Source of the DNA: a virus
Virus record (IMG/VR): IMGVR_UViG_3300046011_004811
Location: 1-20,950 of that record
Length of the DNA: 20,950 nucleotides
Strand: one strand, 5' to 3'
Position numbers and translations under genes: made by a program. The notes under the pieces were generated by a model. It did no database searches. It was given only the letters and a program-made list of their open reading frames with translations, and was not told the origin of the DNA. Position 1 is the stretch's first letter. Every line of letters starts with the position of its first letter. Shown here piece after piece: positions 15,011 through 19,632 of the stretch.

Positions 15011-15850
15011 TTAATCTCCACAGAAGCACGCAATGGCTTCTTCTTCGGCGTCGAACATGTCTCGTTGGTCTGCAGCGAACTGCTGCATCTGCAAATAGGT
15101 CGGATCGTTTGGCCGGAAATGGATGCCGCGACTGTTGGCATCGTTGACCCTGGTTTGCGCCCACGCTTCTTCTTGAACCCACCAGACAGCACGGTTTGGC
15201 TTCTCCTTGATAAGAGAAACAAGCTGGCCGGTAGGCTTCAAAAAGCACAGATCGCAGTTCCCGGCTACGTCGCCAAGGTCAAAGGCTTGATCCCGCCAAA
15301 ACGCCATGACATCGGATTTTGTAATCCCAACATCAGCCAACGGCATGCGCCGCTCACAACCCGCGTCATCGACTGGCTTTGCGCGAATCTTTGCCACCCG
15401 GCGTTGTTCGTCTGCCCGAATGCCAACCAAGTTTTCCCACTCGCTGTAGCCGTAATCACGCATCAGGTTTGCTGCGGGCAAAATCTTGAGATTGATCGTG
15501 CAGTAACGCTGCATTGCAGTCGGGAGGTATTTCTTCCGCCTGTTCAATGCTGTGAATGGCTGGCCGTGCCTTGATGCCGTTGCGTAATCAACGCAGGCCC
15601 AGCGGAACGCCACCAAATCACTGTCTGCGTACTCGACCCAATCAATGGGCACGCCCCAGCGCCGGCTGCACTCATCAACAAACAGCAGCGTGCGTTCATC
15701 TTCCCTGCCGGTGTTGGCAAAGATCACCTTTGCGTCATCAGGCAACCCGCCATTGCTTTGCAGCACGCGCCACAGCATGTAGGCGCTGGTCCTGCCGCCG
15801 CTGAAACTAATGCAGGTCGGCCCATCGATCCTGAACGGATCACGCTTCAT
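15011..15850 (-). CDS. PAPS-reductase-family PP-loop protein (279 aa)
   Basis: The 279-aa product has a PP-loop SGGRTS (17-22) as in the phosphoadenosine-phosphosulfate reductase/adenine nucleotide alpha-hydrolase superfamily, then VIFANTGRED (about 43-52) and FVDECSRRWGVPIDWVEY. Later it has NCDLCFLKP, a CxxC, and a Cys-containing tail ACFCGD, which could hold a metal or iron-sulfur site. Family members activate substrates with ATP, and related DndC proteins work in DNA phosphorothioation. A start at 15850 has AAGGGGAAG upstream and overlaps the Cys-rich gene by ATGA. Phage copies of this family are common and usually of unproved function. Confidence 0.85.
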   Translation of the reverse strand: MKRDPFRIDGPTCISFSGGRTSAYMLWRVLQSNGGLPDDAKVIFANTGREDERTLLFVDECSRRWGVPIDWVEYADSDLVAFRWACVDYATASRHGQPFTALNRRKKYLPTAMQRYCTINLKILPAANLMRDYGYSEWENLVGIRADEQRRVAKIRAKPVDDAGCERRMPLADVGITKSDVMAFWRDQAFDLGDVAGNCDLCFLKPTGQLVSLIKEKPNRAVWWVQEEAWAQTRVNDANSRGIHFRPNDPTYLQMQQFAADQRDMFDAEEEAIACFCGD

Positions 15851-16005
15851 TGCTTCCCCTTGAATGCCGGGCACCTTTGCGGCAGTTGCGCCAGCGTTGT
15901 CCCGATTTCGATTGATGCCCACGGACTCAGACCGGCGGCTTTGGCTTGCATGCACCGGCCGGCTTTGAAGTGCTGGCATTGGCGGCAGGTGTGCATGTCA
16001 GTCAT
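15847..16005 (-). CDS. 52-aa Cys-rich protein
   Basis: Between the DUF559 nuclease and the PP-loop gene a minus-strand frame encodes MTDMHTCRQCQHFKAGRCM... and ends ...CPAFKGKQ. Its cysteines (7, 10, 18 and 44) with a CxxC and neighbouring His suggest zinc or iron binding. It overlaps the upstream nuclease gene by eight bases and the downstream gene by ATGA, so it completes an unbroken chain. The frame is too short for a typical ORF threshold. Its role is unknown, but the coupling with a nuclease and a PP-loop protein is of interest. Confidence 0.78.
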   Translation of the reverse strand: MTDMHTCRQCQHFKAGRCMQAKAAGLSPWASIEIGTTLAQLPQRCPAFKGKQ

Positions 16006-16423
16006 GCTTCAGGCCATGCGCGTCGGCAATGCTTGCGATGCGCTGGTAAGCAATCCCGGCGTCATCAGTCCTGCACTCGCGCCCCGTCAGCCTGTAGACA
16101 GTCCAGCCAAGCGCCTCAATCTCGCCCTGCCGCTTTGCGTCTGCTTCCGCGTCTTGATGGAACTTGGCGCCGTCGCACTCAATGGCGACCTTTGCAACCG
16201 GGTTGCCAAAGTCCACAAAGCGGCGACCAACCGGGTACTGCGGGTACAGCACCGCGCCAACTTCGCGGATGTCTGACCACAGCCAGGCTTCAATCGGCGT
16301 CATGCGGATTCCGGCGTCGCTGTCCCACGCATAGGCATCGATGCCCCATGCAGATGCGCCAGCGGCTTGGATGGCGGCTTCGTGGCGCTCGTAATGCAAC
16401 CTGATGCGGTCCCAATCGCTCAT
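15998..16423 (-). CDS. DUF559-type PD-(D/E)XK endonuclease (141 aa)
   Basis: The C-terminal half carries the signature of DUF559/very-short-patch-repair-like nucleases: VGRRFVDFGNPVAKVAIECDG (65-85) with Asp71 and Glu82/Asp84 as likely metal ligands, then KFHQDAEADAKRQGEIEALGW and VYRLTG (109-114). Residues 1-45 form a helical cap ending MTPIEAWLW, the usual TPxExxLW lead-in. It would cleave or nick DNA, perhaps in repair, recombination or host-DNA attack; the substrate is not evident. The ATGA overlap with the P-like gene fixes the start at 16423. Confidence 0.82.
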   Translation of the reverse strand: MSDWDRIRLHYERHEAAIQAAGASAWGIDAYAWDSDAGIRMTPIEAWLWSDIREVGAVLYPQYPVGRRFVDFGNPVAKVAIECDGAKFHQDAEADAKRQGEIEALGWTVYRLTGRECRTDDAGIAYQRIASIADAHGLKHD

Positions 16424-16935: not shown

Positions 16936-17737
16936 CGATGTAGTCCTGTTGCGTTGATGGGTCCAGGGATGTGCCCTTGAACCACTTAGCCATTTCTGCG
17001 GCCTTTCGTTCACTGGCTGATGGGGTAGGCCCAGCCCGCCCCTGTTCGTGCAGCCACGCGGCCTTAAAGCCCGCCCAGCCGTTGCCCGCAGCGGCCTTGA
17101 TGGCCTCGCCCGGAGTGATGCGGGCTTTGATGGCCTCAGCCTTGATGTCAGCCCATGCAGTCGGCGTCAGCGGCAGACCCTTTGCCTTGCGGGCAACGAG
17201 CCAATCCGTCGCGTGCTGTTCCTCGACACCATCGGCAACCAGATCGGACAGAGACACAAGCACCGCAGGTGCTGCGCGCTTGCGCGTTGTCTTTGTCTCT
17301 GGTGTTGGTGTTGGTGTTGGTGTTGGTGTTGGTGTTGGTGTTGGTAGCTCAACCAACGTTGAGCACTCGTTAAACGTTCGTTCAACGTCCGCTGCACGTT
17401 CGCTTGTCTGCTTTGCTAGGCGAGCGTTCACCGATGCCTGAGCGGACGCCTTAGCCTTCGCTTGCTTGTCCTGCATCTTGGCTATCTCAGCCTCGCAGCG
17501 AAGGTGAATCCAGCCTTGCCCGTCATCGCTGGTGAAGAACTCGCGCAACACCGCTTCCACCTCTGCCACATTGCCGCGCATGCGAATCAACCGAGCCACC
17601 TCCGCTGGCTCTGCCGGAAGTGCGCATTCACGCAGGTAGTACAGGTCGAGCATCCGGCGATAGGCCAGGTCTTCCATCGGCTCTAGGTGGGCCGTGTGGG
17701 CTGCGTAGTCGCCCAGGTGGAAGGGGTAGTAATTCAC
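16910..17737 (-). CDS. DUF1376 (YdaU-type) replication-region protein
   Basis: Residues 1-110 are a DUF1376 domain: YYPFHLGDYAAHTAHL (3-18), LAYRRMLDLYYL (24-35), VARLIRMRG and IHLRCEAEIAKMQDK. These proteins sit at the replication locus of many lambda-like phages and are thought to bind origin DNA, with an initiator role inferred. A Pro-Thr linker of seven PT units (about 132-146) joins a C-terminal helical part ending DPSTQQDYIDAAPL. The start is GTG at 17737, four bases after the preceding stop, without a strong ribosome-binding site. An origin, if present, could lie within this gene as in lambda O; apart from the hexamer repeat I see no iterons. Confidence 0.82.
   Translation of the reverse strand: MNYYPFHLGDYAAHTAHLEPMEDLAYRRMLDLYYLRECALPAEPAEVARLIRMRGNVAEVEAVLREFFTSDDGQGWIHLRCEAEIAKMQDKQAKAKASAQASVNARLAKQTSERAADVERTFNECSTLVELPTPTPTPTPTPTPTPETKTTRKRAAPAVLVSLSDLVADGVEEQHATDWLVARKAKGLPLTPTAWADIKAEAIKARITPGEAIKAAAGNGWAGFKAAWLHEQGRAGPTPSASERKAAEMAKWFKGTSLDPSTQQDYIDAAPLTLR
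17301..17342. repeat. Seven tandem GGTGTT hexamers (Pro-Thr linker)
   Basis: Seven perfect copies of a six-base unit (GGTGTT on the plus strand) encode the PTPTPT linker of the DUF1376 protein. Because the unit is six bases, gain or loss of copies keeps the frame and only alters linker length; slippage is the likely origin. Confidence 0.92.
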
Positions 17738-18191: not shown

Positions 18192-18443
18192 TCATGCGGC
18201 GACTTTTGAGCGCTTGCCGTTGCGGTCGCGGTCTGCGTACAGGTCGCGCACAGTCATGCCCTTGGGCATCAACTTTTCCAGCCGCAGGAAGTGCATCGGT
18301 GATGCCCAACCGCGCTCCACCCACTGCTGAACCAGTTGATAGTGGAAGCCGTCGGAGATCAGCGCAGCAGTCCGCGCTGGCCCTCCGTGGTGTTCGACTA
18401 GGCGACGAATCGCGCTTTCTTTACGGGGTGGGTTCGTTTCCAT
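18192..18443 (-). CDS. Cro/YdaS-like regulator
   Basis: The product of 83 aa contains LVEHHGGPARTAALISD (about 13-29) and YQLVQQWVERGWASPMHFLRLEKL (about 32-55), the helix-turn-helix of the YdaS/Cro-like family, whose members act as phage regulators. A basic tail DRNGKRSKVAA ends it. The ATG at 18443 follows -10-like GATAAT by only a few bases, so the mRNA may be leaderless; an in-frame ATG at 18452 overlaps that -10. It faces away from the repressor gene across an operator pair, the classic Cro position. Longer reading to 18518 passes through the operator and is rejected. Confidence 0.82.
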   Translation of the reverse strand: METNPPRKESAIRRLVEHHGGPARTAALISDGFHYQLVQQWVERGWASPMHFLRLEKLMPKGMTVRDLYADRDRNGKRSKVAA

Positions 18444-18450
18444 GCCGCCC

Positions 18451-18478
18451 ATTATCCACAAGTTCTGCTTGGGAGCAA
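18451..18478 (-). promoter_or_regulatory. Putative early lytic promoter (PR-like)
   Basis: On the minus strand TTGCTC (18478-18473) and GATAAT (18456-18451) are spaced by 16 bases. GATAAT matches the consensus in five of six bases; the -35 matches weakly. Both operator dyads overlap the -35 and spacer, so repressor binding would block polymerase. Transcription would begin at about 18444, next to the ATG of the Cro-like gene. Confidence 0.6.
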
Positions 18479-18488
18479 GTTCTACTTG
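18459..18488. promoter_or_regulatory. Operator pair OR-like (two CAAGTTCTRCTTG dyads)
   Basis: CAAGTTCTGCTTG (18459-18471) and CAAGTTCTACTTG (18476-18488) are near-perfect dyads whose half-sites CAAG(T)/(A)CTTG are symmetrical; centres are 17 bp apart. They lie between the divergent Cro-like and repressor genes. The same two dyads with the same spacing recur at 19389-19418, which is strong evidence of a shared regulator. Confidence 0.88.
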
Positions 18489-18526
18489 TGTCGTCTGGCG
18501 AACATTGCCCGCGCACACTCGCAGAC

Positions 18527-18949
18527 ATGGACGAAACCATCGGCGAACGCATCAAGCGGATCGCCAAAGAGCGCGGGAAGTTGTCGGGCGCGAAGCTGGC
18601 CGAACAGTTCGGCGTCAGCTATGAAGCCTTGCGCCGATGGTCAAAGGGCATCGACACGCCAACGCCGGCCAACGCTGCGGCCATCGCTGAATACTTGGGC
18701 GTGCCGGTGTCTACGGTGATGTTCGGCGCCGCCCCGCCGCCGCGTCGTCCCGACGCAGAAGCGATAGCCGATGCCTTCGACGCGATGCCCGTAGACAGTG
18801 ACAGCGCCATTGATCGGCGCCAGTGGCTCTATGCGTCGATCATGGGGCAGATCGCAGCGCAGACCGCATCCGCGCCCAATCCTCAGCCACCACAGCCTGA
18901 CGCGCCGCCCACCGCTGCGCGTCGTCCAGCCGCAAAAACGCGGCCTTGA
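18527..18949 (+). CDS. Repressor candidate, XRE-type HTH (140 aa)
   Basis: The N-terminal 65 residues form an XRE helix-turn-helix: IGERIKRIAKERGKLSGAKL (5-24), QFGVSYEALRRWSKGIDTP (27-45) and AIAEYLGVPVSTVMFG. The rest is short, with no S24 peptidase or cleavage site, so self-cleavage on DNA damage is not evident. The last 26 residues are Pro/Ala-rich and lie in the stretch overlapping the convergent gene. The ATG at 18527 lacks a ribosome-binding site, as in leaderless CI mRNA of lambda. Position between two identical operator pairs and divergent from the Cro-like gene supports repressor function. It could alternatively be a regulator of another sort. Confidence 0.75.
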   Translation: MDETIGERIKRIAKERGKLSGAKLAEQFGVSYEALRRWSKGIDTPTPANAAAIAEYLGVPVSTVMFGAAPPPRRPDAEAIADAFDAMPVDSDSAIDRRQWLYASIMGQIAAQTASAPNPQPPQPDAPPTAARRPAAKTRP

Positions 18950-19277
18950 GAATTCCGCAGGCCATTGCTAGGTCTGCGTAGGCTCTAAACATCGGCAGTT
19001 GCTCGGGAGAGACAACCAGCGCGGTCGGCACGATCCGCACGCCGAAGCGCTGCGCCTGGTCGGCCACTGACAGCAGATGGTCGGCCCCGATGGCAACGGC
19101 TGACTCGCTGTAGATCACCACGTTTGCCAGCGCTGCGCGCCTGCCACCCCATGCAGGGCTGTCGCGGATGATCCGGCCCGCTGTCGATGGCGTTACCACC
19201 CCACTGATCCGCGCCAGAGCTACGGCGCCGCGTTGCCCGACATGCGCGCTGGCCGTCGGATAGCTGTAACTGTTCAT
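18840..19277 (-). CDS. Unknown gene between the operators (145 aa), rex-position
   Basis: The ATG at 19277 has AGAGG six bases upstream. The 145-aa protein reads as an alternating beta/alpha protein: VALARISGVVT (18-28), ALANVVIYSESAVAIGADHLL (about 49-69), RIVPTALVVSPEQL and a helical C-terminus rich in Ala/Arg. No catalytic motif, signal peptide or membrane segment is visible, and I do not recognise the family. Its 3' end overlaps the repressor gene by 110 bp on the other strand. A longer frame to 19424 runs through the operator and is dismissed; it starts with the same peptide (QVEL..KQNL) as the frame upstream of the Cro-like gene, because both read the same operator. Lysogenic conversion or exclusion is inferred from place. 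Confidence 0.68.
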   Translation of the reverse strand: MNSYSYPTASAHVGQRGAVALARISGVVTPSTAGRIIRDSPAWGGRRAALANVVIYSESAVAIGADHLLSVADQAQRFGVRIVPTALVVSPEQLPMFRAYADLAMACGILKAAFLRLDDAQRWAARQAVVAEDWARMRSALRSAP

Positions 19278-19310
19278 CTTGCCTCTGTTGGCGTCTCGTT
19301 GCGCCGTGTC

Positions 19311-19326
19311 ACGGTTTTTACACCGT
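19311..19326. promoter_or_regulatory. ACGGT-N6-ACCGT dyad upstream of the unknown gene
   Basis: A perfect five-base-arm palindrome, ACGGT TTTTAC ACCGT, lies 34 bases upstream of the start of the unknown gene. It differs from the CAAG operators and may be a site for another regulator or for the gene's own product. The adjoining CCGT-GTC-ACGG followed by TTTTT is a weak hairpin. Function is unproven. Confidence 0.45.
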
Positions 19327-19388
19327 CTCCAATGCGACGCCTTCACCTGTTCGGGTGGTACGTAGTCGGTTAGGTAATCTGCAATTCG

Positions 19389-19418
19389 CAAGTTCTGCTT
19401 GTGCCCAAGTTCTACTTG
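19389..19418. promoter_or_regulatory. Operator pair OL-like (two CAAGTTCTRCTTG dyads)
   Basis: CAAGTTCTGCTTG (19389-19401) and CAAGTTCTACTTG (19406-19418) repeat the pair at 18459-18488 base for base, with the same 17-bp centre spacing; only the four-base spacer and flanks differ. It lies upstream of the plus-strand early operon and of the minus-strand unknown gene, so it could control both directions. Confidence 0.88.
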
Positions 19419-19427
19419 TGCCATGAT
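19399..19427 (+). promoter_or_regulatory. Putative early leftward-type promoter (PL-like)
   Basis: TTGTGC (19399-19404) and CATGAT (19422-19427) are 17 bases apart on the plus strand, both weak matches, with the second operator dyad filling the spacer. The layout mirrors the promoter at 18451-18478, with the distal dyad ending just before the -10. It would start transcription about 35 bases before the first plus-strand gene. Confidence 0.45.
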
Positions 19428-19467
19428 CCGTCATCGGTTCAACGAACCAGCACACCGGAGAGCAGAG

Positions 19468-19632
19468 ATGAACAGCAACGACTTCCCGCAGGTGACCTTT
19501 GCAACAGGCAATGGCGTTCTGCGCGGCCACATCGTCGGCACCTTTGAACTTGGCGGCGAACTGTTCTATGTCATCCGCGACCAGTTCCGCGATGAGCGCG
19601 CTCTGCGTGCCAACGAGTTCCAGATTGCCTAA
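19468..19632 (+). CDS. Small early protein, first gene of the plus operon (54 aa)
   Basis: The product MNSNDFPQVTFATGNGVLRG and so on to RANEFQIA reads as five or six short beta strands, a small barrel-like fold. CGGAGAGCAGAG before the ATG gives a good ribosome-binding site, which decides this start over upstream in-frame ATGs lying in the operator. It is the place where lambda has N; no basic Arg-rich motif is seen, so an N-type antiterminator is not supported. Function unknown. Confidence 0.75.
   Translation: MNSNDFPQVTFATGNGVLRGHIVGTFELGGELFYVIRDQFRDERALRANEFQIA

Follow-up and report, generated by a model that had tools for sequence, protein, structure and literature searches.

The stretch of DNA analysed here (the window) is a linear IMG/VR record of an uncultured bacterial virus with a length of 20,950 bases and an immunity region at its right end, where a probably real gene for a protein of 145 aa, ORF145, is located between the repressor gene and the left operator and is directed against the repressor gene. 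Comparison with a sister phage, L103, reveals the junction of an immunity swap, with ORF145 on the cassette side, and marks the gene as dispensable in the sister lineage, as far as one sister record can tell. On the best reading, which we hold tentatively and at somewhat less than an even chance, ORF145 is an accessory ('moron') lysogeny gene on an exchangeable immunity cassette and would act by binding a partner protein. This reading is preferred because ORF145 is linked to the cassette and because the interval that it occupies is known to be used for accessory genes.

The immunity switch and its exchange between sister phages

The portal protein encoded in the window resembles the portals of many phages, one of which is annotated as P22-like, and the DUF1376 replication protein matches phage primosomal-protein families. 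The latter contains a Pro-Thr tract (PTPTPT..., at about 17297-17347) that recurs in relatives at differing lengths. A PAPS-reductase-like gene at 15011-15979 (minus strand) also matches SspD in the PADLOC library (E 4e-14), and a DUF559/MTES_1575 endonuclease-like gene at 15998-16423 (minus strand) is positioned beside the replication genes.

The order of the elements in the immunity region is Cro, OR, repressor, ORF145 and OL. The CI-like repressor (140 aa, 18527-18949, plus strand) matches HTH_3 (E 1.8e-8), while the Cro-like gene (83 aa, 18192-18443, minus strand) was assigned by its position at OR and a weak match to a DNA-binding family (phrog_8008, E 0.0013). A 37-nt operator block is present in two copies in the same orientation, OR at 18454-18490 and OL at 19384-19420, which are 86% identical and each contain two 13-bp CAAGTTCT(G/A)CTTG sites spaced 17 bp apart. 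Exact CAAGTTCT(G/A)CTTG sites occur four times in the whole window, all within these two blocks. Divergent repressor and Cro genes together with identical operator sites at OR and OL are features of lambda-type immunity. Putative promoters, identified by consensus matches that are not proof, overlap both operators: PR (TTGCTC-16-GATAAT, 18478-18451) is directed toward Cro and a weak PL (TTGTGC-17-CATGAT, 19399-19427) toward the early operon. In the PR region (window 18441-18456, minus strand), the best -10 element (GATAAT) ends 8 nt ahead of the Cro start codon at 18443, and the cro message may therefore be leaderless. A search against Rfam gave no match, and viral contigs scanned for the operator pair, Cro, the repressor and a 73-aa neighbour contained none of them.

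No S24 peptidase domain was recognisable in the repressor by profile search, which returned only HTH matches over the 140 aa. The repressor of a related phage (L011), used as a positive control for S24 detection, matched PF00717 with an E-value of 1e-15. The counterpart in L103 (L103 370-702) likewise shows no S24 self-cleavage domain. Because this domain was recognised in neither repressor-position protein, induction of the two phages may not proceed via RecA-stimulated cleavage.

The early operon runs to the right from 19468 as a series of small genes of unknown family. Its first gene after OL (54 aa, 19468-19632, plus strand) was used for the scan by which L103 was found, and the protein is identical in both phages. 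The DNA of L103 is 97.5% identical to the window from position 19431, in the operon leader, to the end of the 54-aa gene, and further stretches of the early operon match at 95-96%. Left of 19431, just right of OL, everything differs between the two records. L103 carries a different Cro-like HTH protein and, at the repressor position, a 110-aa protein with an HTH match only below threshold and no S24 match; no gene is present in the 151 nt between the stop codon of this protein (702) and the start codon of the early gene (854). Since L103 shares the operon yet has another repressor and Cro and no ORF145, sequence comparison indicates that ORF145 is cassette-linked and dispensable in the sister lineage. 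The right junction of the swap at position 19431, with ORF145 on its cassette side and no counterpart in L103, is the most solid new finding of the analysis, although it depends on a single sister. Within the common early operon, L103 has two extra genes (frames of 247 and 81 aa, L103 1033-2025) between the 54-aa and 81-aa genes.

In the other DUF1376 relatives inspected (L007, L011, L014, L031 and others), the genes called on the far side of the repressor share its direction wherever this could be read. The antiparallel orientation of ORF145 is an exception among them.

Coding evidence for ORF145

The initial annotation had described a 145-aa protein with its own ribosome-binding site, encoded antiparallel to the repressor. 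All of this agrees with the present analysis: ORF145 occupies exactly 18840-19277 on the minus strand, opposite to the repressor, starts with an ATG at 19277 and is preceded, as read from the sequence, by an AGAGG (19278-19287, minus strand) 4 nt 5' of the start codon. The proposed location between the repressor and OL needs a correction. The gene does hold the position of rex and the operators do flank the block, but the arrangement with the repressor gene is tail-to-tail, and the last 110 bp of ORF145 overlap the 3' end of the repressor gene convergently.

The length of the frame is in itself compatible with chance at this G+C, as 56% of 700-nt stretches simulated with the same composition contained a frame of at least 145 codons. 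Codon usage was scored after training on the 14 other genes of the window, with 107 stop-free wrong-frame windows as controls, which overlap and hence amount to fewer in independent terms. The 109 codons of ORF145 outside the overlap reached a score of 17.1, a value at the 15th percentile of windows from true genes, against a control maximum of 5.6 (n=107); at this position, the five remaining frames had negative scores and one to five stops each. Support was weaker when only synonymous codons were considered (score 9.4, with 3 of the 107 controls as high). As its codon usage exceeds that of all 107 wrong-frame controls, ORF145 is probably a real gene. Within the 110-bp overlap, codon usage fits the ORF145 frame (12.0) and not that of the repressor (-17.6), suggesting, from 36 codons only, that the Pro/Ala-rich tail of the repressor overprints an older end of ORF145.

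A start further upstream at 19424, giving a protein of 194 aa, was rejected. The extension had negative codon scores in both tests, and OL would fall inside the gene; the start at 19277 with its AGAGG is preferred because of these scores. The 194-aa version gave a weak match to PrtN (E 0.02, below the cut-off), mostly within the 49-codon upstream extension. The start region of ORF145 (19257-19286) and that of the 54-aa early gene (19459-19488), which are located on opposite strands, agree at 70% of 30 nt, ribosome-binding site and ATGAACAG included, by chance or by common origin.

Nothing upstream of ORF145 exceeded shuffled sequence in the search for a promoter, and the mirror position at OL directed toward ORF145 lacks a -10 element. 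A dyad, ACGGTTTTTACACCGT, is located at 19311-19326, some 34 nt ahead of the start of ORF145, and is the sole exact copy in the window; it may be due to chance, as at least two matches with one mismatch occurred in 8 of 100 shuffles.

Predicted fold and searches for relatives of ORF145

That no family could be recognised for ORF145 had been noted by eye, and profile searches of Pfam, PHROGs, NCBIfam and PADLOC, libraries which hold described families only, confirm it. A confident assignment to a family of structural or replication proteins, which the initial annotation had named as evidence against its proposal, was not obtained. Comparison with PDB sequences gave no meaningful E-value, tblastn against phages, with cut-offs of E 1 and E 10, returned a single match of 33% identity (E 2), and tblastn in plasmids found no relative. 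The same was true when viral and genome contigs were scanned with peptide patterns, which reach close relatives only, and when 12 related viral records were searched over their whole length.

Three candidates were discarded. A match in the genomes L002/L003 is located opposite a long frame with repeated SH3-like segments and is absent from 40 kin genomes, and was attributed to chance. The LPMFRxYA stretch of ORF145, used as a degenerate pattern, yielded mostly one unrelated phage protein family and short junk frames, and a frame in L009 (E 0.0047 over 31 residues in a small local database) appears to reflect arginine-rich composition.

The single-sequence AlphaFold model of ORF145 is of low confidence (pLDDT 43.7, pTM 0.38). 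Its predicted elements follow the order strand-strand-helix-strand-helix-strand-helix-strand-helix, which is that of STAS domains, and two model runs, on constructs that overlap, gave the same pattern. In a Foldseek search with the model, the best seven PDB chains were all STAS anti-sigma-factor antagonists (top match 1tid_D, probability 1.00, E 9.4e-4). VIA-align ranked 1vc1_A first (Z 8.3 over 97 residues, rmsd 3.0 A; best unrelated row 6.9) and gave a similar list for a trimmed construct (best Z 7.7), values to be read against a usual best score of Z 7-8 for models without a clear match. Structural matches in BFVD were unconvincing and were set aside. ORF145 has no Pfam match to the STAS and SpoIIAA-like families PF01740 and PF11964, and hhalign against profiles from 29 SpoIIAA-like and 29 STAS domains did not score above shuffled ORF145. 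The Ser/Thr phosphoacceptor motif expected behind the third strand is absent by eye in the low-confidence model, where residues 54-66 read YSESAVAIGADHL; the sole Asp-Ser of ORF145 (residues 39-40) precedes the third strand. The motif itself is not kept by all SpoIIAA-like proteins.

A small alpha/beta domain in the STAS (SpoIIAA/RsbV-like) arrangement, without the usual phosphoacceptor motif, is moderately supported by these predictions. ORF145 is STAS-like in predicted shape only, a structural lead that is weak but specific, and we do not count it among the STAS proteins because Z-scores of 7-8 are common without a clear match and because the profiles performed no better than shuffles. Small STAS-like proteins usually act through protein-protein binding. 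Among the papers searched, none mentions a STAS domain together with a prophage immunity region or as phage-encoded.

Possible roles of ORF145 and comparison with known systems

If ORF145 is an accessory lysogeny gene, it would be carried on an exchangeable immunity cassette by a temperate phage whose portal is of P22 type, and would be expressed in the prophage state from its own promoter. The product would bind a partner protein rather than catalyse a reaction, and the lysogen would benefit, e.g., by superinfection exclusion or by a tuning of lysogeny. The initial annotation had suggested a lysogeny, exclusion or defence function. The anatomy it described was right, and the cassette side and the absence from L103 fit a lysogeny-linked accessory function, but no defence family of PADLOC was matched. 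Several findings count against an accessory gene: the model with its pLDDT of 43.7, the missing STAS profile support, the lack of a recognised promoter and the single sister record. In addition, the known genes of the repressor-OL interval run repressor-wise, and ORF145 would oppose the repressor message.

The main rival, which we regard as unlikely, is that ORF145 antagonises the repressor, binding it while convergent transcription disturbs the repressor message at its 3' end, and so favours lysis. The repressor, unlike that of L011, has no recognisable S24 domain and would need another route of induction. The convergent overlap of 110 bp and the general tendency of STAS-like folds to bind proteins also agree with such a role. 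A gene that overlaps the repressor gene and acts on the repressor is known from Hex of phage 434, where the effect is protective (PMC3564112). However, the protein at the repressor position of L103 is likewise short and gives no S24 match, yet L103 has no such neighbour; in addition, no promoter is seen for ORF145.

It is improbable that ORF145 is an early lytic gene, produced in the course of infection in the manner of small host-takeover genes and with no role in lysogeny. The adjoining early operon consists of small unknown genes in a row, and a direction opposing the repressor message would suit expression with the repressor off, but ORF145 points away from this operon, is located on the cassette side and not the operon side of the junction, and has no operator-linked promoter directed toward it. 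We also consider it quite unlikely that the frame is a chance or decayed one opposite and beside the repressor, as might be concluded from the absence of relatives in the searches run, a length compatible with chance and the modest synonymous-only support; the full codon score above all controls, the ribosome-binding site and the identical strand-helix pattern in the two model runs argue against it. Very unlikely is an anti-sigma-antagonist-type switch recruited by the phage, in which a STAS-fold protein from the immunity cassette would pair specifically with a repressor that cannot be cleaved, or with a sigma or anti-sigma factor of the host, and would decide between lysis and lysogeny.

The interval from repressor to OL has been fruitful for finding exclusion and lysogeny-control proteins of prophages, and ORF145, as an antiparallel cassette-tied orphan with a predicted fold of regulatory type, is a small and cheap target for functional tests. 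Should it act on a repressor without a cleavage domain, this would bear on how such prophages are induced.

The preferred reading, an accessory lysogeny gene, can be set against several known systems. From STAS/SpoIIAA antagonists, which it resembles in predicted strand and helix order and in its top structural matches, ORF145 differs by the absence of an Asp-Ser-x-Gly type phosphoacceptor and of a profile match, and by its context in a phage immunity region. The interval from the repressor to N has been described as a hotspot of accessory genes, and rexAB of lambda and bstA of BTP1 are located between repressor and OL, run repressor-wise and are expressed in lysogens (PMC7067206; PMC8585504). 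ORF145 has in common with them the interval between the repressor and the early left operator, variable between related phages, but it is antiparallel, with no recognised promoter and no defence-family match. In phage 434, hex is transcribed together with the repressor gene, and its product shields the repressor from RecA-stimulated cleavage (PMC3564112). As a small gene that adjoins and overlaps the repressor gene it resembles ORF145, whereas ORF145 is antiparallel to a repressor without a recognisable cleavage domain. Compared with rexAB, bstA and hex together, ORF145 shares the position in the interval, with its 110-bp overlap, but not the repressor-wise co-transcription, being on the opposite strand. 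ORF145 is a probably genuine orphan gene, best read as accessory, in a known hotspot, and is unusual in its antiparallel orientation.
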